Source: a bacterium
GTDB taxonomy: Bacteria > Patescibacteriota > Microgenomatia > Levybacterales > UBA12049
Direction: 5' to 3'
Length of the DNA: 38,081 nucleotides
Assembly (NCBI GenBank): GCA_021824155.1
Contig: JAKALN010000006.1
Span: 1-38,081, forward strand
The notes beneath the pieces were generated by a model. The model did no database searches. It worked only from the letters and a program-made list of their open reading frames with translations, and was not told the DNA's origin. This document shows positions 995 to 37,188 of this stretch, one piece after another. How positions within the stretch are numbered: the first letter of the stretch is position 1; every line of letters starts with the position of its first letter. Both the position numbers and the translations under genes were made by a program.

Positions 995-1633
995 ATGGAT
1001 ATTGCTCTAATCCTGGAAAAATTTAGGCCTTTTTTCCGCCATAACTGGCTTCCTTTAGCCTTGGGAATAGCTGGTTTGATATTGTTTATATATGGTTTGA
1101 TATCCTTATTAGTTTCGAATTCAAAAAAGGCTGATTTGGTTTTCGAAACAACAGGTACATCTACGGAAAGCGCAAGATTAACTTCGCAAATCGCAGCAGA
1201 TATAGAGGGAGCGGTTATAAAACCGGGCATGTATAAGCTCTCTGAAGGCGCAAGAGTTTGGGATATTCTTATACTGGCACAAGGTTTGTCCGAGAATGCC
1301 GATAGGGGTTGGATAGAGAAAAACCTCAATCTGGCAGCCAAATTATCTGACGGTGCTAAAATTTACATTCCAAGGGTCGGAGAGCTTCAAAAAGACGCAA
1401 CAAATTTTGTTCAAACAGGTATTTCAGCGGGGCAAATTCGGGGTTTGCCGGCCCTTATAAACGTAAATACCGCTACAAGTGTCGAGTTGGATGTATTGCC
1501 CGGGGTAGGTCCGGTAACAGCAGAGAAGATTATAAGTAACAGACCTTATACTTCGATCGATGAGCTTCTTTCAAAAAAGGCAGTAACAAGCAAATTATTT
1601 TCCGAAATAAAAGACAAAGTAACAGTCCAATAA
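995..1633 (+). CDS. comEA: ComEA-like DNA-binding competence protein
   Basis: This is a membrane-anchored DNA-binding protein of natural transformation, expected to hold incoming double-stranded DNA at the cell surface and pass it to the ComEC channel. The 212 residues show a transmembrane segment at about 17-40 (WLPLALGIAGLILFIYGL). An SLBB-like domain follows at about 65-130 (DIEGAVIKPGMYKLSEGARV). The C-terminal helix-hairpin-helix module covers about 150-212 (INVNTATSVELDVLPGVGPVTAEKI is the diagnostic motif). Domain order and length fit ComEA. The start is an ATG without a Shine-Dalgarno. The comEC channel and MBL genes follow on the same strand, separated only by a four-helix-bundle cassette that begins right at the comEA stop codon. 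Confidence 0.9.
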   Translation: MDIALILEKFRPFFRHNWLPLALGIAGLILFIYGLISLLVSNSKKADLVFETTGTSTESARLTSQIAADIEGAVIKPGMYKLSEGARVWDILILAQGLSENADRGWIEKNLNLAAKLSDGAKIYIPRVGELQKDATNFVQTGISAGQIRGLPALINVNTATSVELDVLPGVGPVTAEKIISNRPYTSIDELLSKKAVTSKLFSEIKDKVTVQ

Positions 1634-2094
1634 GCAAATGAGAAATGACAAATAAGCAAATGAATATAAAAATATCTAAGTCAACAAATAATCAACCCAA
1701 AGAAAGAGATATTCATGAAAGAATATATAAATTTGTTATTAGGATAATTGCTTTAACCAAGTCACTTCCTAAAAACCCTCAAAATGATGTGATAATTCAT
1801 CAAATTGTTAAATCAGTAACCTCGATGGGAGCAAATGACCAGGAGGCTGACGGGTCTGAATCAAGAAAAGACTTTATAGCAAAATACTCAATAGTAAAAA
1901 AGGAGAATAAAGAGACCAATTACTGGTTAAGAGTTATAGGAGATACCAACCCTTCTATTAAAAAACGAATAGTAAATCTTCAAGAAGAAGGATTGGAGTT
2001 GGTTAGAATTATATCTGCAATTATATTAAGCGCAAAGAGAAAAATTTGATCATTTACAGATTCATTTGAGATTTGCTTATTTGCATATTTGATT
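1632..2094. repeat. Inverted-repeat-bounded cassette carrying a four-helix-bundle gene (family B ends)
   Basis: The left end (1632-1665) and right end (2061-2094) are built from the same motifs in opposite orientation: CAAAT, AAAT and GCAAATGAAT-type blocks, about 24 of 34 positions pairing with one gap. The left end starts on the comEA stop codon and the right end finishes 10 nt before comEC. The same AAGCAAAT/ATTTGCTT family occurs without a gene inside at 30156-30253 and 37090-37185. RNA from the cassette could fold into a long stem with the gene in the loop. Confidence 0.55.
1645..2049 (+). CDS. Four-helix-bundle protein (S23/IVP-like)
   Basis: A 134-residue protein of the four-helix-bundle family first found as the S23 protein of 23S rRNA intervening sequences and related to the Avd accessory protein of diversity-generating retroelements. 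Its biochemical role is unknown. Recognisable family features are the first helix with FVIRIIALTKSLPKNPQNDVIIHQIVKSVTS, a central Gly/Asp-rich turn (GANDQEADGSESRKDF), and the C-terminal helix ending LVRIISAIILSAKRKI. The first 15-20 residues (MTNKQMNIKIS) are encoded by the flanking family-B repeat, so the real start could be a little downstream. It interrupts comEA-comEC, and no reverse transcriptase or rRNA gene is nearby. A second, divergent member lies at 33094-33498. Confidence 0.8.
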   Translation: MTNKQMNIKISKSTNNQPKERDIHERIYKFVIRIIALTKSLPKNPQNDVIIHQIVKSVTSMGANDQEADGSESRKDFIAKYSIVKKENKETNYWLRVIGDTNPSIKKRIVNLQEEGLELVRIISAIILSAKRKI

Positions 2095-2104
2095 ATTTGA
2101 TCTG

Positions 2105-3376
2105 ATGTTTTTAAAACTCTTTATAGCTTTTCTTTTAGTTATATTATCGGTCCGTTTTTACTTCTTTTTTCAAAAAGGGGACACTTATAAAGACGGACAG
2201 AAAATAAGATATGAAACAACTATTTTTTCAGAGCCGCAGTCTAACTCAACTATCCAGAAAATAGACGTAAATCTTCCTACGGGTGAGAATGTATATATAA
2301 CTCTACCGCGTTTCCCGGAATATAATTATGGGGATAGGATAATCATTTCTGGCCCCATACGAATTTTACCCCGCCATGGCGGGGGGCAATCATACGGGGC
2401 AAGCACTCGAATATTTAGTCTGCTATTTAATAAACAGCAGTATATATTTTCACAAAATTTCCCAAAAATTGAATATGTGAAAACAGATAAAGACCTTATT
2501 TTAGCAGTCATAACTTTTATACGACAAAGAGTTTTAGGAGTCTTTAATAATGCCCTGCCTCCGGATTTGGCAAGTTTACTTCTTGGAATAGTTTTTGGAA
2601 TTAAGGCTCCGATGTCAAACAGTTTTTTTAACAGTTTAAAACTTTCCGGAGTTCTTCATATAATCGCGGCTTCGGGGATGAATGTAACCATGGTTGGAGG
2701 TTTTTTAAGCTCATTTTTCATAATTTTCTTTAAAAGGCAAACGGCGGTTATCTTAAGCATCTTTGGAATTATTTTTTATGCTTTTCTTGCGGGATTCTCA
2801 GCTTCTATTGTCAGGGCATCCATAATGGGAATTCTTGTTTTTTCTTCCCAAATCTTAGGAAGGCAAAGTTTTGCCTCTTATGGACTTTTTGTGACCGCTT
2901 TTATTATGCTTTTTATTTCTCCTAATTTAATTTTTGATATTGGTTTTCAATTATCTTTTACCGCAACAGCGGGACTTTTATACATAAGGCCTCTTTTTGA
3001 CTTTAAGAATCTTAAAAAAATTCCTCTTTCGGAAGATGTTTTAATAACTCTAAGTGCCCAGATAGCCACGCTTCCGATACTTTTAGCAACTTTTGGGACT
3101 TATTCTATGTGGTCGGTAGTAGTAAATGGACTCGTGCTTTGGACAGTGCCAATACTTATGGTTTTTGGGGGGTTGGGGGCGGTGTTTGGTTTGGTAATAG
3201 AGCCTATCGGAAAGATTTTCCTTTATCTCTGCCTGCCTTTTCTGCTTTATTTTGGGCAGATTGTTTCATTTTTCTCAAAAGGAGCACTTTTTAGCCTTGA
3301 GACGTTACCCTTTAGCTTTGTCCTAGGGTATTACTTTTTATTATTATCCGCGATTTTATACCGAAAAACCAAATAG
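2105..3376 (+). CDS. comEC: ComEC/Rec2 DNA-uptake channel, membrane part
   Basis: Integral membrane component that forms the channel for single-stranded DNA during transformation. The 423 residues start with a membrane segment (LFIAFLLVILSVRFYFF), then a soluble OB-like region at about 25-125. The Competence domain follows with the family motif SGVLHIIAASGMNVTMVGG at about residue 182-200, and roughly eight further membrane helices. The usual C-terminal metallo-beta-lactamase domain is absent here and is encoded by the next gene, 2 nt downstream, so the protein is split compared with Bacillus ComEC. A perfect GC palindrome in the soluble region (2369-2384) encodes LPRHGGG and looks inserted. 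The start is an ATG just after the family-B repeat with no Shine-Dalgarno. Confidence 0.88.
   Translation: MFLKLFIAFLLVILSVRFYFFFQKGDTYKDGQKIRYETTIFSEPQSNSTIQKIDVNLPTGENVYITLPRFPEYNYGDRIIISGPIRILPRHGGGQSYGASTRIFSLLFNKQQYIFSQNFPKIEYVKTDKDLILAVITFIRQRVLGVFNNALPPDLASLLLGIVFGIKAPMSNSFFNSLKLSGVLHIIAASGMNVTMVGGFLSSFFIIFFKRQTAVILSIFGIIFYAFLAGFSASIVRASIMGILVFSSQILGRQSFASYGLFVTAFIMLFISPNLIFDIGFQLSFTATAGLLYIRPLFDFKNLKKIPLSEDVLITLSAQIATLPILLATFGTYSMWSVVVNGLVLWTVPILMVFGGLGAVFGLVIEPIGKIFLYLCLPFLLYFGQIVSFFSKGALFSLETLPFSFVLGYYFLLLSAILYRKTK
2369..2384. repeat. Perfect 16-bp GC palindrome inside comEC
   Basis: CCCCGCCATGGCGGGG is fully self-complementary and is translated in frame as part of the ComEC soluble region. 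It stands out against AT-rich flanks and resembles the GC hairpins at 611-625 and 25196-25222. Confidence 0.7.
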
Positions 3377-5962: not shown

Positions 5963-5967
5963 ACTCT

Positions 5968-6128
5968 TAATTATAAATATGCAAATGACAAATATGCAAA
6001 TGAAGATTTTTGATGATGACGCTAGATGCTGGAAATTAGATTTTGAAGTTCGAAGCTAGAAGCTAGAGTCTAACTTCTAATATCCAGCTTCAAGGTCTAG
6101 CTTCAAGTTTCCATTATCTGTTATCAAA
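5968..6128. repeat. Composite repeat: family B unit plus family C hairpin
   Basis: Bases 5968-6005 carry the AATATGCAAATGACAAATATG-type family B unit. Bases 6016-6128 are a family C imperfect palindrome made of AGATGCTGGA/AGAAGCTAGA/TCTAACTTCTAATATC/CAGCTTCAAG motifs, ending in TTATCAA. Close relatives lie at 20861-20965, 25072-25251 and 26775-26893. This fills the gap between the kinase gene and the small membrane-protein gene. Confidence 0.65.
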
Positions 6129-6133
6129 GAGTA

Positions 6134-7216: not shown

Positions 7217-7369
7217 ACCTAATATAAACGCTAGCAGTTCTATTTTGAAAATGCAAGTCCCAACAAAGATTTATGATTTATGAAAACGTGGGAGACGATA
7301 TATTTTTTTAAATTTTTGCTTTTTACCTCTTTAATTGGCAATCAGTTATCCAGGATACGGAATTTTTGA

Positions 7370-7482
7370 AATGGGAAGTAGGATTTTCTTGAATTTGAAT
7401 TCTAGATTTCAAGAATTCTTGACTTCAAAGAATCAAGGTCAAAAATATCAAAGATATCCAACATCAAGGAGTCTAAGCTTAA
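7370..7482. repeat. Family A palindromic repeat upstream of argS
   Basis: Contains GAATTCTAGATTTCAAG continuing into the perfect palindrome TCAAGAATTCTTGA; bases 7397-7422 are identical in reverse complement to 37509-37534 and nearly so to 21972-21997. The distal part (AAAATATCAAAGATATCCA, ACATCAAGGAGTC) also recurs at 21905-21945 and 37445-37480. The frame across it is open into argS, so a spurious N-terminal extension can be read. Confidence 0.75.
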
Positions 7483-7502
7483 GAGTTTTGCTTATTTCGT
7501 TG

Positions 7503-20965: not shown

Positions 20966-22086
20966 TGTCTTTCATCAAGGATAATTTTTCTTTTTCTCTC
21001 CAGATAGATTATAAAAATAATCATCAAAAGTAACGCTCCGCCTATTTTTATAAAATCAAAGCTTCCTTGCGAGAAAAACTTAACGCTTGCTGTCAGTTTC
21101 TTATTCTCTTTGCCAAAATGCATTGAAAGTGTGGCTGTATAAAATCCCGGAAGAAGAACTTTTTGGTAATTGGTAATATTTGTGTCATACCGCCTTATGC
21201 TTTCGGGTAAGGCATCCAAAGAGTTAGTGTTAAGAATTCCCCGGGCAACAAGATTGCCTAAAGGGTCGTAAATTTGTATTAGGCCATAAGGGGCTACAAA
21301 GACGTTTCCGCTGTTTTCAAAACGCAGTATATAAGTACTGGGGTAGTCAATGCCGTCACGTGTCGGATGGAAATCTAATATTTTACCGTCTTCGTATTCT
21401 TGGCCCGTTGATGCTCTTATGAATAAAAGGCTTGAAAGTACAGGGTTAACGCTTACTGCTTTTGTATTTTCCGGCTGGCTAACTTGCGCCAAAATGCTTG
21501 CGTAATGGCCTCCTTTAGTAATTTTGTCTTTATCGATAAAAACTTTTATTGTTTTTGATTCTTTTGGAGAAAGCTCTATGAAATTATTTTCAAAAGAAAT
21601 CCAAGAGGAGAGTGAATATCTGAAATTAGACGCATCTTTTGGACTTAAAAAGTCTATCTTATAGCTGTCCTCCAATTGGGTAAAATCCTGTGCTTTTAGA
21701 GAAAGTGTAATATCAGAATTTGTATTGTTAGTATAGGTCAGATTATACTCGGGAGGGTTTGAGGCAAGGTCAAGGTGTTCTATAGATGGGGAAACGGTGA
21801 TACCGGGTTCTGTGTTTTGGGCAAGAGCGGAGGGGATATAGAATAAGCAAATAAGCAAATAAGCAAAAACGATGATGATTAATGATTTATGATTAATGAT
21901 TACAGAAAGACTTCTTGATATTGGATATCTTTGATATTTTCGATCTTGAGCCGTGAGCTGACGGATTGAAGTCAAGAATTCTTGAAATCTAGAATTTCCT
22001 TCGACCCCGAGCTCAGGATCGAGGGACAAGTTCAAGAGAATCCAGCTTCTTATTTCAAAAATTCTGTTTTTAATTTTAAGTTCCAT
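20941..22086 (-). CDS. DUF916-like membrane-anchored surface protein
   Basis: Reads as a secreted protein with two Ig-like domains and a C-terminal membrane helix, the architecture of DUF916/DUF3324 (WxL-interacting) proteins. From the far ATG it is 381 residues. Residues 1-70 are family A repeat translated in frame (SRFQEFLTS, KYQRYPISRS). The hydrophobic signal VIINHKSLIIIVFAYLLICLFYIPSALAQ follows, then the mature part with ITVSPSIEHLDLASNPPEYNLTYTNNT. The C-terminal anchor is IKIGGALLLMIIFIIYLE plus basic residues. The start is uncertain: the ATG at 22086 has a TATTAT hexamer 6 nt upstream, while a TTG at 21975 would give a shorter leader. It resembles the protein at 22877-23923. Confidence 0.75.
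   Translation of the reverse strand: MELKIKNRIFEIRSWILLNLSLDPELGVEGNSRFQEFLTSIRQLTAQDRKYQRYPISRSLSVIINHKSLIIIVFAYLLICLFYIPSALAQNTEPGITVSPSIEHLDLASNPPEYNLTYTNNTNSDITLSLKAQDFTQLEDSYKIDFLSPKDASNFRYSLSSWISFENNFIELSPKESKTIKVFIDKDKITKGGHYASILAQVSQPENTKAVSVNPVLSSLLFIRASTGQEYEDGKILDFHPTRDGIDYPSTYILRFENSGNVFVAPYGLIQIYDPLGNLVARGILNTNSLDALPESIRRYDTNITNYQKVLLPGFYTATLSMHFGKENKKLTASVKFFSQGSFDFIKIGGALLLMIIFIIYLERKRKIILDERHSKMEARS
21845..22060. repeat. Composite family B/A repeat at the 5' end of a surface-protein gene
   Basis: Bases 21845-21870 are tandem AAGCAAAT units. Bases 21874-21910 are identical over 37 nt to 36346-36382. Bases 21911-22000 are a family A element (palindrome TCAAGAATTCTTGA at 21972-21985 and a CCGTGAGCTGACGG hairpin). 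Bases 22008-22035 are a GC-richer insert (GACCCCGAGCTCAGGATCG). All of it lies inside the open reading frame of the surface gene. Confidence 0.7.
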
Positions 22087-22122
22087 TCATCAATAATATC
22101 AAAATCTATACGCTAAACGCTA

Positions 22123-22151
22123 TTCACTATTGGCTTTTTTATTGTTATCAT
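22123..22151 (+). promoter_or_regulatory. Promoter for unknown lipoprotein-like gene (likely leaderless)
   Basis: TTCACT (4/6), a 17-nt spacer and TATCAT (5/6). The ATG follows after 6 nt. Confidence 0.45.
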
Positions 22152-30144: not shown

Positions 30145-30155
30145 TTATGTTAATG

Positions 30156-30253
30156 ACAAATATGCAAATGACCAATAAGCAAATAAATAGATTAATCATT
30201 AAATCATTTAAATATTCATTCGAAATTTGCTTATTTGCATATTTAATTATTTA
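30156..30253. repeat. Family B hairpin without a gene
   Basis: The left arm has AAATATGCAAATGACC and AATAAGCAAAT. The right arm has ATTTGCTTATTTGCATATTT, complementary apart from a 4-nt bulge. The loop is AT-rich. It is the empty counterpart of the gene-carrying cassette at 1632-2094. Confidence 0.7.
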
Positions 30254-30257
30254 AAAA

Positions 30258-33092
30258 ATGTTAAAAAAGATATTTGTATTCATAACAATATTAAGTCTAT
30301 TAACCGGTTATTTTCCGGTTGCCGCGTTTGCCCAAACGGCAACCGATTCTGCCCAAGCTAATGGCTCTTCTTCTGCGGATATGGTTCAAAGTCTTGTTTC
30401 AACTTCTTCCTCAAGCCTAAGCTCACCATTTTCGGATTCTTTTGTTAGTTCTTCAGTTGTGCCTTCCCAAAACCCCATTGTTAATCCGCTTCTTATTTCT
30501 CCCTCGTTTGACTCCGTATCTCCCGGCACTCCAAATTTTTCAACAGGGATTACAAAAAAATGGAGTATAGGCGGAGTTATAAAACACGATTATAAAGGAG
30601 ACGAGGCATATCAGACAGTTTTAGATAACATTTCTCCCCAAAATATAAATGTTAAGGTTTTTGATGATAAAGGAGATAAGGTTACGGTAAATTTGCAAAA
30701 AACAGATACCGGAAACGGTACTGCTTTTCAGATACTTCCGCCAAGAGACTTCCGGCCGGGAAAATACACGGTTCAGTTTACCGATTCCAACGGCAATACC
30801 CAGACGCAGGATTTTACCTGGGGAGTTTTGGCAATAAATACCGATAAGTCCATTTATCTTCCAAATGAAAACGCAAACCTTTCGATGGCTGTTTTGGATG
30901 ACAGCGGAAATATGGTTTGTGATGCAAGCGTTACTTTAGTTATTACTAATCCCGATGGTTCAACATCTACTCTTTCGACTTCAAACGGTTTAATAGCCGT
31001 AAATCCGGATTGTAAAATCCACGCTTATACCCAAAATCCCGATTATGAAGCAAATTATCAGGTTGGTGGAGCGGGAACGTATAATATGGCTCTTACCGCA
31101 AATATTCCCCAAGGGTCAAGAACAATCTCCGACAGCTTTACGGTCCAAAATAGCGTGTCTTTTGATGTCCAAAGAATTACTGGAACAAGAATATTTCCCC
31201 CAGCAGCTTATCCTGTTAATTTTAATATAAAAGTAAATAAGGATTTTAACGGGCAGATTATAGATTATGTTCCGAGTTCTTTTACGATTTTACCTTCTAC
31301 AGGCTCAGCGGCCGTTCCTTTTGATGTAAAGCAGATTGCGGCTCCGGTTTCCAATACTAATGGTAATTTTTCTTCGATTCATCTTGCACTCCCATTTAAT
31401 GGAAATCATATAGAGACCTTGGGTTTCGGCCAGCAGCTTTTAGATCCGCAGGAAAAAGATTTATATGCGCAGTTCGGCCTTTCGGGGCATGACGGTTTGG
31501 ATTTTGCCATGCCTATAGGAACTCCGGTTTTGGCAGCGGATGACGGAACAGTTGTTATGGCAGGGGGAGTGATTTACGGAACAACGATAGTTATCCAGCA
31601 TTCATGGGGAAGAAGCTACTACGGACATTTAAGTAAGGTGGAAGTTAAACTGGGTCAAAATATAACAAAAGGCGAGGAAATAGGGCTTTCCGGTAACAGC
31701 GGGATTACAACAGGGCCGCATTTGCACTTTGGAATAAAACTTAACCAAAACGACTCCGGTAACGGGTATTACGGAAAAGTCGATCCAAGCTTTTATCTTG
31801 GAATTACCCCGGTGCAGAATACGCCTTCCAGTATTAACGACACGGTAAAAGCAATCGTCTGGAATATAAATGTTAAAAAAGGAGATACTCTTAACCTTTC
31901 TTACTCGTTTAAAGCCCCTGATGTAAGCCCTATGTTTTATACATTGGGACCTTTAAGTTTTTACGACCCTGATAAGAATCTTATTTTTCAGGAAGCAAGG
32001 CAATGGCAGCTGGCAATAGACGTTGTTTTTCCGGCGACTTCATATCTGTCTTCAACAGCAGATACTCTTTTGACAGCCAGTGCCTGGCAGATTGTTACCG
32101 CCCAGCCTGCTTCCGGAAACACTACGACAAGCGTTACACACAGCAATAAAAATGCAGGTTATTACCAGTGGAAGCCCGGGGTAGCGGGAAACAGCACAAA
32201 TGCGGGCACAACTGCTCCTACCACTCCAAGCGGCACGGGTTTTCTTTATGAAACTTCTTTAAACAGCACTATTCCTACTGGTACTTGGCAGTTCACAATA
32301 CAGACCAATACTTCGGCTACGGTTAATTCTACAGAGGTCCCAACGGTTTGCGTGTGGGAAGTAAGTATATCCGCAGGGGCAATTACCAGTCCGGTATCCA
32401 TAATACCCTGCACAGACGGCGCGACAAGCATTTCAACCGCAGGTACAACAACACAGACAATATCAGTAAGCGGAGTGGCTGCCGTTTCTTTTACGTCAAG
32501 TCAGTATTTATATGTAGAATACTGGGAGCACCAAAACCCTGCCGGAAGCGGAAAAACCGTATCTACAACAATTACCTTTCAGGCCAATGCAGGAGCAAAT
32601 AACAAAATTGTCACACCCGGAGCATCAAGCAATCTGTCTCCGGCAGCACCAAGCCAGGATTCACCGCTAAATAGCGCGACAGGGGTTTCAACAAGTCCTA
32701 CTTTTCTTATGACATCCGCCTCCGATGCGGAAAGCAATAATATCCAGTATAAAGCTACAATTTATTCAAACTCTGCCTGTACCACAGCTGTCCAGACAAA
32801 CGATGAAAGTGCTTCCCAGACAGGCTGGACGGGCCAGAATGCTACATGCACAAGCGGTTTGGATTGTTATACTCCGGGCACTCAAGGTTCTTTTCTAACC
32901 CAGACTGCGCTTTCAAATAGTACCCAATATTGGTGGAAGGCAAGCGCAAAAGATCCCTTGGGGTCGAATGCGTTTACGGATTCTTCTACTTGTAATACTT
33001 TTACTACGCAGTCTGCAGGGCCAACCCTGGATCAGTTATTAAGGCACGGAGAATGGTTTAACAGCGGAGTAAGACAACCGTTTACATTTTAA
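30258..33092 (+). CDS. Large secreted protein with M23 peptidase domain
   Basis: A 944-residue secreted protein. Signal peptide about 1-27 (FVFITILSLLTGYFPVAAFAQ); Ser-rich stalk about 28-90; Ig-like domains about 95-300 (DKSIYLPNENANLSMAVLD). The M23 domain lies at about 385-505 with zinc motifs GHDGLDFAMPIGTPVLA (H and D ligands) and HLHFG, plus RSYYGHLSKVEVKLGQ and KGEEIGLSGNSG. Further beta domains follow to the end. M23 enzymes cut peptidoglycan cross-links, so it may remodel the wall of self or of a contacted cell. It ends LDQLLRHGEWFNSGVRQPF plus TF, a tail unlike the preceding low-complexity region. The next gene begins 1 nt after its stop. Confidence 0.86.
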   Translation: MLKKIFVFITILSLLTGYFPVAAFAQTATDSAQANGSSSADMVQSLVSTSSSSLSSPFSDSFVSSSVVPSQNPIVNPLLISPSFDSVSPGTPNFSTGITKKWSIGGVIKHDYKGDEAYQTVLDNISPQNINVKVFDDKGDKVTVNLQKTDTGNGTAFQILPPRDFRPGKYTVQFTDSNGNTQTQDFTWGVLAINTDKSIYLPNENANLSMAVLDDSGNMVCDASVTLVITNPDGSTSTLSTSNGLIAVNPDCKIHAYTQNPDYEANYQVGGAGTYNMALTANIPQGSRTISDSFTVQNSVSFDVQRITGTRIFPPAAYPVNFNIKVNKDFNGQIIDYVPSSFTILPSTGSAAVPFDVKQIAAPVSNTNGNFSSIHLALPFNGNHIETLGFGQQLLDPQEKDLYAQFGLSGHDGLDFAMPIGTPVLAADDGTVVMAGGVIYGTTIVIQHSWGRSYYGHLSKVEVKLGQNITKGEEIGLSGNSGITTGPHLHFGIKLNQNDSGNGYYGKVDPSFYLGITPVQNTPSSINDTVKAIVWNINVKKGDTLNLSYSFKAPDVSPMFYTLGPLSFYDPDKNLIFQEARQWQLAIDVVFPATSYLSSTADTLLTASAWQIVTAQPASGNTTTSVTHSNKNAGYYQWKPGVAGNSTNAGTTAPTTPSGTGFLYETSLNSTIPTGTWQFTIQTNTSATVNSTEVPTVCVWEVSISAGAITSPVSIIPCTDGATSISTAGTTTQTISVSGVAAVSFTSSQYLYVEYWEHQNPAGSGKTVSTTITFQANAGANNKIVTPGASSNLSPAAPSQDSPLNSATGVSTSPTFLMTSASDAESNNIQYKATIYSNSACTTAVQTNDESASQTGWTGQNATCTSGLDCYTPGTQGSFLTQTALSNSTQYWWKASAKDPLGSNAFTDSSTCNTFTTQSAGPTLDQLLRHGEWFNSGVRQPFTF

Positions 33093-33093
33093 T

Positions 33094-33498
33094 ATGAATT
33101 ATGAAGCAGGAGTTATGAATCAAGGGAAAATAAAATCATTTACAGACCTAAATGCTTGGAAACAAGCCCATGTTTTGGTATTGGAAATTTATAAAATGAC
33201 CCAAAATTTTCCAAAAGAAGAACAATTTGGTTTAACAAATCAAATAAGAAGAGCCGTAGTTTCAATAACCTCAAATATTGCAGAAGGTTTTAGCAGAAAC
33301 TCATACAGGGAAAAGGCCCAATTTTACTCCATGGCTTTAGGTTCTTTAACGGAAGTTCAAAACCAACTCCTTATCGCAAAAGATTTAGGTTACATAACGA
33401 ATAATGAATTTTCAAGAACAGCAGAATTAACAATTACGGTAAGTAAACTTCTAAATGGATTAATCAAGAAATCAAAAACCATGATTCATGATTCTTAA
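33094..33498 (+). CDS. Four-helix-bundle protein (S23/IVP-like), second copy
   Basis: A 134-residue S23-family protein, the classical type: FTDLNAWKQAHVLVLEIYKMTQNFPKEE, FGLTNQIRRAVVSITSNIAEGFSRNS, FYSMALGSLTEVQNQLLIAKDLGYI. The ATG at 33115 (MNQGKIKSFTDL) is the family-like start; the seven codons before it belong to the left inverted repeat. Both ends of the gene are inside complementary sequence (33094-33121 with 33483-33510, 22 of 28 positions pairing without gaps). It sits 1 nt after the M23 gene. It is clearly more canonical than the copy at 1645-2049. Confidence 0.88.
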   Translation: MNYEAGVMNQGKIKSFTDLNAWKQAHVLVLEIYKMTQNFPKEEQFGLTNQIRRAVVSITSNIAEGFSRNSYREKAQFYSMALGSLTEVQNQLLIAKDLGYITNNEFSRTAELTITVSKLLNGLIKKSKTMIHDS

Positions 33499-33510
33499 TT
33501 CATTATTCAT
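33094..33510. repeat. Inverted-repeat-bounded cassette carrying the second four-helix-bundle gene
   Basis: Left end 33094-33121 (starts ATGAATTATGAA, ends TTATGAATC) pairs with right end 33483-33510 (starts GATTCATGATTC, ends CATTATTCAT), 22 of 28 positions, no gaps. The gene fills the space between. The motifs are of the AATTCATAATTC type, as in the gene-free hairpin at 13376-13455, and differ from the family B ends of the first cassette. Confidence 0.6.
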
Positions 33511-33533
33511 TTTGGGAAGGGAGGTGATAAAAG

Positions 33534-33657: not shown

Positions 33658-36543
33658 TTACAGGTTCTTTGGCCTGTATAAAAATAAGAAGAAAAGGATG
33701 ATGTTTGCGGAAGAAATAACAAGGAAGGGGGCAATCCTTAAAAATCCGAAAGTAAAAATAAAAAAGATTTGCGCTATAAGCGCGGAAACAAGCAAAAATT
33801 CAAACAGTATCCCCAGCATATCTTCAAAATATATAGTCCAGATTTCATATAAAGGTTTTTGATATTCGTTATCTCTTTTAAGTTTAATATTAATTCCTTG
33901 GTTTAAGCTTTGCTTTGAATATTCGATAAATGGAGTAGGAGAAAAGCCCTTCTTCATAACGGAAATTTTATAATTATCGGCCTGCATATTATTAAAATAA
34001 AACTCACCAAGTTTATTTGTTTTTAAATGAGCTAAAATTTTGTTCTTATCGGCATCGATAATATATACGTTTGCTTTGGAAACAGGTTTATTTTCCGAGT
34101 TTAAAATTTTCCCTACAATAATTGACGATTTGTTTTTATATAACAGAAGTTTGGTTTTTGCTACAAAAAAGTAGGGAATAGAAGATAGGGGAACATGGGT
34201 TTTTGCGGAAAAAGAGAAGAAAATGCTTGCAACAAACACGAAAAGAGCTATAAAGGTTAAAAGGTCTAAAAGCCTATTTGAAGCAGTATGGGCAAGGAGA
34301 TATTGCTGGTTTGAATACATCGCATCAATGAACGTGTTTCCTAAATATTGAAGAAAGTTTATGGGGTTAGACGGTTCTTCTTGAAGGTAAACAGTGGGAT
34401 ACTTCGTTGAATTCGGTGTTATTTCAAATTCAACTGTAGAAGAATCAAAACTTATATTGGAGATGTCGGCTTTGTATTTTCCGTAGGGCAGTACAAGGCT
34501 GAGTATCCCGTTTATATCCGTAAACTGGGGATTTGCAAAAGATAAAACTTGGGGCGAAATTGTTTCATAGATTTTTGTATTTTGGTTATATAAATAGAAA
34601 AGAACCCTTGCTCCTTCAACGGGCCGTCCGGTTTTTTTATCTAAAACAGTGAATTGCGATGTAACGGTAAGGTCTGCAATTTTTTCTTCGGTTATATTTC
34701 CGTTAAAATCAATAATTCTTACAAAAATTTCATACTCTCCCGGTATGGGTTTCGACCTTAGCCTTCCAGTATAAACACCGGGTTGTACTTCGACCAGATC
34801 CACATAATCCGTGCTTGCATCTGCCTCTTGTACAAATGTATTTGCCCCGAGGACGTTACTTCTTATTATTGCCTGTATGCTTTTAACAGAGGCTGCTTTT
34901 TTAAGTGAAAACTGTATTTGAAAATTGGAAGAGGCGGGAACAACAATAATATTTTTGTTTGTTACGTTTAAAGAGGAATTTATGGAAGGGTTAACAAGAA
35001 CATTGCTTTGGCTGGTTACGACAAGACTATTGGTTTGGACAGAAGGCTTTTGGGAAATAACTGCGGTTGTAAATGTAAAAATATCGGATGTCAGGCTGTT
35101 ACCGCTTGAGCCGGTTGCGATTACCCGGAAATAATAATCGGTATTTGGGGCAAGGTCTGTTAAATTAACGGTTGTTTGTTGTTGAAGGGAAAGAGTTGAA
35201 ATGTTTTGGGAGAGGCTGTTAACGGAGGTCCCGTATATCACTTTTAGTGTAGAAGGAGTTGTTGTGGTTACGGAAATCCCGGCAGTATCCTGTGATACGG
35301 AATTTATGGAAATGTCGGAAATTGAAAACGGAGACTTTCCGGATATAATACCTGCCGGATTTGGCGTAGGGGTAGGAGCAGGAGTCGCGGAAGAGGGGAC
35401 GCTGTAAAGGTAATTTTGTGTGACTGTCTGGTCCGGAGTTACCGTGGAGCTGGAAATTGCCCTTGCAGAAACGTTAAAGCTTACATTATTTGCTCCCGTA
35501 TAATTATCGTTTGTTTCGAGGCTGAAAGTAACCGTTTTATTTAAAGTGCCGGCGGGGAAGGAAGGAATAGTCCAGGTTATTGTTTTGTTTAAACTGTCAA
35601 CTACAGCAGGGGTGTTTGAAAAAGCATTAGATGCGCTTCCTACTACGTAACCTAGTATATCTACGGAGGGAGAAGGGGAACCGTTAACCGTGCCGTCCGA
35701 CCATTGAGCTTGGATCGTAAGAGGGATCGAATATGATGTATTTGAACCGTATGTAATTGTGTATGAAAGAACCGTATTTTGGGAAAATTGGCTGCCTGTC
35801 GTTGTAGTTTGAAAGCTAATCGGCAGGTCCGAAATTGAAGGCTGTATGCTTGCGGTTACTCCTATCTGGTCATTGCCGGTAATAGAAACTGCATAATTTG
35901 AAGAATCGATGGTATTTTTAGAAGAATTTTTTGAAACTAGAGAGCCGACCTGGTTATCTCCTGCTGTTCCTGTTGTAGAGTTATTACCGGTAAAGTTAAA
36001 ACAATAAAGTACACCGGCTGTTAAGTCGCTGCTTTTAAATGTTACCGTTTGGCCCGAGACGCTGTTTATGGGGGCAGAGACTCCCGGCCATGAAACCGAT
36101 CCGGTTGGAATATTTGCTGTATTTGCGTTCCAGTCGGAAGTATTTTGGGAAACGGCAAAACTGCTTGGGAAAGTTACCGATATATAACTTTCGGTTCCTG
36201 CTCCCGGCGAAGACGGCTGGGCGCACGCTGTTCCGGAAAGGGAGGAATTAGCCTGTTGGTTATTAAGCCTTAAATAGGCGGTAGAAAAGGTAGAGGCATG
36301 CGCAGAAGGCGCAAGGGCAAAAATGAACAAATAAGCAAAAACAAGGATGATTAATGATTTATGATTAATGATTACAGAAAGATTCCTTGATGTTAGATGT
36401 TTTTGATGTACTTGAACTTGATTTTTTAATATCTTGAATTCAAGAAATCTAGACCTCAAGGTTTCAAGATCAAAAATATCAAGAATATCTAACTTCAAAT
36501 ATTCTAATTTATCTTTTCCAACCTCAAAGGCCCTATTTTTCAT
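33658..36543 (-). CDS. Very large membrane-anchored surface protein (Ig/Fn3/CarboxypepD-reg domains)
   Basis: Reads as 961 residues. Residues 1-55 are family A repeat; the signal VIINHKSLIILVFAYLFIFALAPSAHA follows, sharing repeat DNA with the 20941 gene. The two-Cys N-domain (85-245; Cys107, Cys181; LYCFNFTGNNSTTGTAG) is paralogous to the 23925 protein. Then come beta domains, a fibronectin-like domain (about 405-500, LAPNTDYYFRVIATGSSG), and a Big/CarboxypepD-reg domain (FTVLDKKTGRPVEGARVLF). After a membrane segment (LLDLLTFIALFVFVASIFF) comes a cytoplasmic or inter-membrane CarboxypepD-like domain (IVGKILNSENKPVSKANVYII), and two more helices at the C-terminus. The start is uncertain: there is no ATG between 36543 and the signal. 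Confidence 0.8.
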   Translation of the reverse strand: MKNRAFEVGKDKLEYLKLDILDIFDLETLRSRFLEFKILKNQVQVHQKHLTSRNLSVIINHKSLIILVFAYLFIFALAPSAHASTFSTAYLRLNNQQANSSLSGTACAQPSSPGAGTESYISVTFPSSFAVSQNTSDWNANTANIPTGSVSWPGVSAPINSVSGQTVTFKSSDLTAGVLYCFNFTGNNSTTGTAGDNQVGSLVSKNSSKNTIDSSNYAVSITGNDQIGVTASIQPSISDLPISFQTTTTGSQFSQNTVLSYTITYGSNTSYSIPLTIQAQWSDGTVNGSPSPSVDILGYVVGSASNAFSNTPAVVDSLNKTITWTIPSFPAGTLNKTVTFSLETNDNYTGANNVSFNVSARAISSSTVTPDQTVTQNYLYSVPSSATPAPTPTPNPAGIISGKSPFSISDISINSVSQDTAGISVTTTTPSTLKVIYGTSVNSLSQNISTLSLQQQTTVNLTDLAPNTDYYFRVIATGSSGNSLTSDIFTFTTAVISQKPSVQTNSLVVTSQSNVLVNPSINSSLNVTNKNIIVVPASSNFQIQFSLKKAASVKSIQAIIRSNVLGANTFVQEADASTDYVDLVEVQPGVYTGRLRSKPIPGEYEIFVRIIDFNGNITEEKIADLTVTSQFTVLDKKTGRPVEGARVLFYLYNQNTKIYETISPQVLSFANPQFTDINGILSLVLPYGKYKADISNISFDSSTVEFEITPNSTKYPTVYLQEEPSNPINFLQYLGNTFIDAMYSNQQYLLAHTASNRLLDLLTFIALFVFVASIFFSFSAKTHVPLSSIPYFFVAKTKLLLYKNKSSIIVGKILNSENKPVSKANVYIIDADKNKILAHLKTNKLGEFYFNNMQADNYKISVMKKGFSPTPFIEYSKQSLNQGINIKLKRDNEYQKPLYEIWTIYFEDMLGILFEFLLVSALIAQIFFIFTFGFLRIAPFLVISSANIILFFLFLYRPKNL
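36330..36530. repeat. Family B/A composite repeat at the 5' end of a surface-protein gene
   Basis: Bases 36346-36382 are identical to 21874-21910; AATAAGCAAAAAC precedes it at both places. Bases 36383-36530 are a diverged family A element with TTGATGTTAGATG, CTTGAATTCAAG (a palindrome) and CAAAAATATCAAGAATATC. It is read in frame as the N-terminus and signal of the surface protein. Confidence 0.7.
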
Positions 36544-36586
36544 TGTCTATACTAACTCTACAATAAATCAAAGGTGCATTCAATCA

Positions 36587-37081: not shown

Positions 37082-37089
37082 TTTATAAT

Positions 37090-37185
37090 TCAATAAGCAA
37101 ATTCTAAATAAGCAAGTCAATATTTAAATAATTTAATGATTAATGTATTCATTTGAAATTTGCATATTTGCGTATTTGCCATTTG
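37090..37185. repeat. Family B hairpin between convergent genes
   Basis: The left arm has AATAAGCAAATTCTAAATAAG. The right arm has TTTGAAATTTGCATATTTGC. The arms pair imperfectly around an AT-rich loop. It lies between the stop codons of the small membrane-protein gene and atpC. Confidence 0.6.
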
Positions 37186-37188
37186 GGA

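Follow-up and report, generated by a model that had tools for sequence, protein, structure and literature searches.

Bacterial ribosomal RNA (rRNA) genes are known to contain intervening sequences (IVS) that carry an S23-family gene, and both the role of the S23 protein and the origin of rRNA IVS have been open for decades. In Coxiella burnetii, the IVS has tandem heptamers (GACAGAT) just before the S23 open reading frame (ORF) (PMC4990558). Heptanucleotide repeats are also known in cyanobacteria (short tandemly repeated repetitive sequences, STRRs; PMC2670836), in Xanthomonas and Nostoc (GGGNATC; PMC4692102) and in Beggiatoaceae (TAACTGA; PMC4679880), and these papers call the function or origin of the repeats unknown or unresolved. 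Here, we analysed a 38,081-nucleotide contig (JAKALN010000006.1; the whole stretch is called the window below) from a bacterium of the Levybacterales (Patescibacteriota) and describe a unit at 1628-2100 in which an S23 gene lies between complementary arms. Taken as a whole, this unit is probably an inserted mobile S23 element of the IVS-like class, and that the class is one of mobile elements we consider very likely. As an IVS-like element in a protein operon, it is new within a known kind. The unit and the genes on either side of it are as follows:

1628..1680, + strand: upstream (5') arm, CAATAAGCAAATGAGAAATGACAAATAAGCAAATGAATATAA..., made of degenerate 7/8-nt words in tandem
1645..2049, + strand: S23 (23S_rRNA_IVP) four-helix-bundle gene, 134 aa
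2050..2100, + strand: 3' arm, complementary to the 5' arm, TTCATTTGAGATTTGCTTATTTGCATATTTGATTATTTGA
995..1633, + strand: upstream comEA-like gene, presumably of SLBB plus helix-hairpin-helix type
2105..3376, + strand: downstream comEC-like gene, with its ATG at 2105, which directly adjoins comEA in relatives

The arms, whose limits are approximate, occupy together with the S23 gene the whole gap between comEA and comEC. The last codon of comEA and its stop (1631-1633) are part of the 5' arm, which also contains the S23 ATG. The ORF scored 59.4 bits against PF05635 and 76 bits against TIGR02436, both above cut-off. Three inverted pairs link the arms, 1629-1648/2062-2081 (85% match), 1649-1661/2071-2083 (100% over 13 nt) and 1657-1673/2052-2068, and the predicted RNA fold of the unit is closed by pairing of the two arms. 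Arm complementarity reached a score of 25 against a mean of 14.1 and a maximum of 24 in 2000 dinucleotide shuffles (p=0.0005), the flanks in this control reaching into the coding ends, where the arms partly lie. These results confirm what a first-pass annotation of the window had proposed, namely an S23 gene enclosed by complementary ends between comEA and comEC, and bear out its suggestion of an IVS-like plan outside rRNA: as in the Coxiella IVS, the ends are complementary and able to form a stem, the S23-family ORF lies in the loop and the length is about 430-470 nt. The difference from an rRNA IVS is the location, between protein-coding genes.

The comparison of the comEA-comEC junction in relatives for empty sites, which the same annotation had suggested, shows insertion into a tight junction. 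The junction could be read in 21 relatives, none of which has an S23 gene at this place, and in seven of them (L039, L040, L044, L046, L049, L050 and L052) the two genes touch, overlap or nearly do so. About ten relatives have gene-free hairpins of other word families there. The junction of L047 holds a near-perfect inverted repeat of about 95 nt (TACGACTTACGCA...TGCGTAAGTCGTA) of a different family resembling miniature inverted-repeat transposable elements (MITEs), and a 100% complete genome of the same genus (G001) had no S23 match and no detectable comEC.

The window belongs to an 814-kb genome whose small size and gene content suggest a Patescibacteria/CPR (candidate phyla radiation) bacterium. 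It has six S23 genes, one with an internal stop, and every one of them lies between complementary ends built from a separate word (p=0.0005, 0.0015, 0.0005, 0.003, 0.07 and 0.0005, again by dinucleotide shuffle), five of them thus at p<=0.003. The two findings that would have spoken against the earlier proposal, an S23 gene at the same place in all relatives, with conserved and non-complementary flanks, and other S23 genes of the genome without inverted ends, were both looked for and neither was seen. The window contains a second cassette, which starts at the stop codon of an upstream 944-aa gene and uses a word family other than that of the comEA-comEC cassette (arm complementarity p=0.0015), and two gene-free hairpins:

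33091..33514, + strand: second S23 cassette, arms 33091-33125 and 33480-33514, words ATGAATTATGAA / TTAATTCATTATTCAT
33094-33498, + strand: S23 gene of the second cassette, 135 bits
30150..30256, no strand assigned: gene-free MITE-like hairpin of the same word family as the comEA-comEC cassette, filling the gap between two genes
37084..37186, no strand assigned: gene-free hairpin of the same word family, in reverse orientation to 30150-30256 and aligned with it over about 100 nt

The two hairpins and a third copy on another contig (L012) are mutually homologous over their full length of about 100 nt, and they have arms in common with the cassette (local scores of 22-42 in the best orientation, against shuffle maxima of 18-23). 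Gene-free MITE-like relatives, which the first-pass annotation had pointed out, do exist. Short, dispersed, homologous gene-free copies with inverted ends are a MITE trait, seen both here and in a pair from a relative described below. The coding partner, in turn, encodes S23 and no known transposase.

The class extends to rRNA itself. The 23S rRNA region of the relative G062 contains an S23 gene between arms of the words GACGGAT, GACAGAG, AACAGAA and GACGGAT, the first two being of the word class found in the Coxiella IVS (PMC4990558). The same genome carries two near-identical gene-free copies (L307 and L308) of a 153-nt element, 151 positions (99%) being identical, at two different places in the 23S gene. 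Both copies end in the hairpin CTTGTGCTCCGCACAAG, and two group I introns are present in this 23S region as well. In G058, another relative, the 23S gene holds a gene-free hairpin of the GATAGAA type, about 50 bp long (-91 kcal/mol with some flank). Thus, coding and gene-free forms occur both in rRNA and at protein-gene junctions. Insertions in rRNA genes of the candidate phyla radiation (CPR), some with 23S_rRNA_IVP ORFs, have been surveyed (PMC11270868) and involve the same protein family in the same broad bacterial group; the survey is restricted to rRNA genes and, in the passages searched, mentions neither heptad arms nor copies in operons.

The frequency of gene-free hairpins at comEA-comEC junctions, the near-identical copies in one 23S region and the presence of heptad arrays in some genomes without a detected S23 gene (e.g. 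G008 and G036) fit a different explanation, in which the heptad hairpins are the real mobile elements, moved by an unlinked enzyme, and S23 is a captured passenger or a binding regulator. We regard this as rather doubtful. Each S23 clade retains its word from one phylum to the next, as mutual dependence of protein and arms would predict, the S23 protein is under purifying selection (see below), and S23-poor genomes tend to have fewer heptad arrays.

The pattern also holds more generally. For 103 S23 genes of the same bacterial family, the best match between the 200-nt flanks served as the measure of complementarity. The median was 20; it was 11 for 96 other genes from these loci (p=6e-26) and 12 when S23 flanks were mispaired (p=7e-48). 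Of the S23 genes, 75 of the 103 exceeded the 95th percentile of the control genes, and 5' arms fitted their own 3' arms better than the arms of other elements. Upstream flanks in this CPR family showed autocorrelations of 0.41, 0.38, 0.34 and 0.32 at lags 7, 14, 21 and 28 over a background of about 0.28, control genes reaching 0.31 at lag 7. A strict rule of five words per arm was rejected, since heptad numbers peak at 4-5 (5') and 4 (3') with a wide range. Genome-wide, where hairpins were counted by pattern searches, heptad arrays correlated with S23 genes (rho 0.44 net of control). The control for the GATAGAA pattern was uninformative because this pattern nearly equals its own reversal.

The first-pass annotation had placed the element class in this lineage, to which it is not confined: the same architecture was found in many phyla as well as in the 23S gene of the same family. 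Plasmid-borne S23 genes, in Nostocales and other cyanobacteria as well as in Azospirillum and Riemerella, have similar arms with words that include GGAGTCA, GGGAGTA, GGTGTAG and AAAAGGG, and some of these genes lie inside operons (cmr2|S23|cmr3 in Picosynechococcus, nrdB|S23|nrdA in Nostoc edaphicum). By the same measure, the plasmid copies L178 and L181 have no complementary arms. CRISPR-cas operons on cyanobacterial plasmids host S23 genes in three cases (L177, L181 and L183; cmr2|cmr3 and cas6|cas4). Furthermore, GTDB species genomes were scanned with a single S23 clade, an alignment that mixes distant S23 proteins being too diverse for this purpose. This gave 419 relatives, the best 80 of which were analysed (66-99% protein identity). 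By record title, these 80 come from Cyanobacteria, Desulfobacterota, Bacteroidota, Chloroflexi, Acidobacteria, Nitrospirae, Verrucomicrobia, Lentisphaerae, Firmicutes, Spirochaetes, Deinococcus-Thermus and others, more than ten phyla in all. Most of them have the same word, consensus GRARTCA, with a complementary word downstream, at an autocorrelation of 0.49 at lag 7, stronger than in the CPR-family flanks, and, except for a few orthologous groups, their flanks are mutually unrelated. The first heptad lies no more than about 10 nt from an upstream stop codon in 28 of 43 cases (clade L194-L269). This stop codon sometimes falls within the first word. Single taxon labels may be wrong because many of the genomes are metagenome bins; the diversity of contexts is independent of the labels. 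Arm similarity rises with S23 identity across 177 elements (Mantel r=0.35, with p at the lowest value that 100 permutations allow) and within the CPR family alone (r=0.18, p=0.003). Gene and word, found together in unrelated contexts, therefore travel together across phyla.

An orthologous site in Nostoc shows presence and absence directly, with the element in L271, L273, L275, L277, L278 and L279. It is missing from L274 and L276, whose flanks are 92-93% identical, and from the more distant L280-L282. The 5' arm of L271, like that of L212, has a short palindrome, GACGCGATTAATCGCGTC, nested in its heptads, and arm-end fragments with this palindrome occur in tens of copies in the same Nostoc genome.

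These observations bear on a third explanation, in which S23 is an ordinary resident host gene whose tandem words arose locally through slippage during replication and serve as terminators or stabilise the mRNA. Tandem repeats do expand by slippage, which counts in its favour. The number of heptamers differs between Coxiella strains (PMC4990558), and an origin of heptamers by polymerase slippage has been proposed, according to a paper that reviews it (PMC4679880). Slippage does not account for a second, complementary arm at a distance of 400 nt, for the recurrence of one word with one protein in many phyla and contexts, or for orthologous sites that are filled in some genomes and empty in others; it is already disfavoured, and we give it very little credence.

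The published heptanucleotide repeats resemble S23 arms in being tandem, 7 nt long and intergenic, with some forming hairpins between operon genes, and in the passages found they are linked to no gene; arms of exactly this kind frame the S23 cassettes of Nostocales plasmids. Tandem 7-nt repeats flank S23 genes both in the bacterial family and in cyanobacteria, the comEA-comEC copy having a period of 8. We favour a reading that places rRNA IVS, operon cassettes and gene-free hairpins in one class of mobile elements, to which the cyanobacterial heptanucleotide repeats probably belong as well. In the open-access literature searched, we found no link of S23 genes outside rRNA to complementary-ended cassettes or to heptad ends. 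Joining S23 with the heptanucleotide repeats would give both a partner, and S23 should then recognise the words that flank its own gene.

With regard to the protein, an AlphaFold2 model of the S23 of the comEA-comEC cassette (predicted local distance difference test score, pLDDT, 89) has four helices (residues 19-132); confidence is low for the initial 18 residues, part of which the 5' arm encodes. The closest folds are 2rld and 2gsc, two S23 structures with five chains each, followed by Avd of diversity-generating retroelements (DGRs; 4dwl, 8ub7) and a DGR reverse-transcriptase complex. Avd has the same pentameric four-helix-bundle fold with a weak sequence relation, and S23 scores below the bAvd cut-off. 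Unlike the S23 cassettes, a phage Avd gene (L190) adjoins a reverse transcriptase and has no arms. Among close S23 copies, the ratio of nonsynonymous to synonymous substitution rates (dN/dS) was about 0.17, so the protein is maintained by purifying selection. Between tandem genes, S23 was co-directional in 54 and antisense in 4 cases in the CPR family, and in 45 and 6 cases in other phyla (99 vs 10 in total). For inserted elements, such co-direction points to a dependence on host transcription or to insertion through RNA, and together with the Avd-like fold it suggests that the elements act through RNA. A resident reverse transcriptase was rejected as the driver, RVT_1 being found in only 15 of 61 genomes with a weak correlation.

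From these sequence-based results, a mechanism can be sketched. The element consists of one S23 gene between tandem-word arms, the second roughly the reverse complement of the first; it would be co-transcribed with the host operon, and the arms would pair in the transcript. The S23 homopentamer may recognise the tandem words, one word per protomer being a guess, and the element may be cut out or shielded as in rRNA IVS, which RNase III excises without re-ligation. Spread could proceed by copying of the element RNA through a reverse transcriptase or another host enzyme in trans, a route that we put forward tentatively, a DNA route also being possible. Equally tentative is the idea of a single minimal mobile class across phyla, with the S23 pentamer as sole protein, complementary clade-specific 7-8-nt arrays and movement through RNA, of which IVS, STRRs and other heptads would be members or relics. 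If true, a very small and widely transferred element class would be added to bacterial genome evolution, and genes labelled 'four helix bundle protein' could be better annotated.

One form of DNA route is transposition, by cut-and-paste or by copying, in which a Y1/RAYT-type transposase would act in trans and the arms would be its terminal repeats. A known system for comparison is that of repetitive extragenic palindromic (REP) sequences, REPINs and the REP-associated tyrosine transposases (RAYTs), which shares with the S23 elements small palindromic intergenic repeats and a single-gene partner, and differs in its Y1 transposase partner, its mostly GC-rich repeats and its lack of a heptad period. 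REP/RAYT systems are common in the family, and the S23 count follows the Y1_Tnp count (rho 0.45, p=3e-4). We nevertheless hold this route to be improbable: 13 genomes with S23 genes, among them that of the window with its six, have no Y1 and no reverse-transcriptase matches, and strong co-orientation is unusual for DNA transposons. A RAYT/REP origin was rejected, as the Y1 genes of the family have other, mostly GC-rich palindromes and their flanks showed no 7-nt period by autocorrelation.

Several observations weigh against the reading of the unit as an inserted IVS-like element that spreads through RNA. The word family of the unit has a period of 8, not 7 (lag-8 identity 0.53 vs 0.35 shuffled, p=0.001). 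The Nostoc site, with few clean pairs, showed no recognisable target-site duplication, and in the filled and empty pair some 25-30 nt of the empty site have no counterpart in the filled one. Native genes would also be co-directional, so orientation may reflect selection for expression, and in Coxiella the S23 protein is reported to be probably not expressed (PMC4990558). The S23 copy number also tracks the unrelated RAYT transposases (rho 0.45), and the genome-wide association of S23 with heptads is therefore not specific. Finally, the window genome has no RVT_1 match, and thus no reverse transcriptase beside an Avd-like gene as in DGRs, and no Y1_Tnp match, hence no Y1 (TnpA_REP) transposase flanked by the same palindromes.

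On a minor note, composite hairpin-like repeats with the words TTCTTGAATTCTAGATTTCAAG and GATTAATGATTTATGATT lie upstream of genes at 5966-6130, 7300-7500, 21835-22130 and 36320-36560. Self-complementarity was not above shuffle at 7300-7500 and was strong in the last two. Some of these repeats lengthen the predicted N-termini of ORFs.
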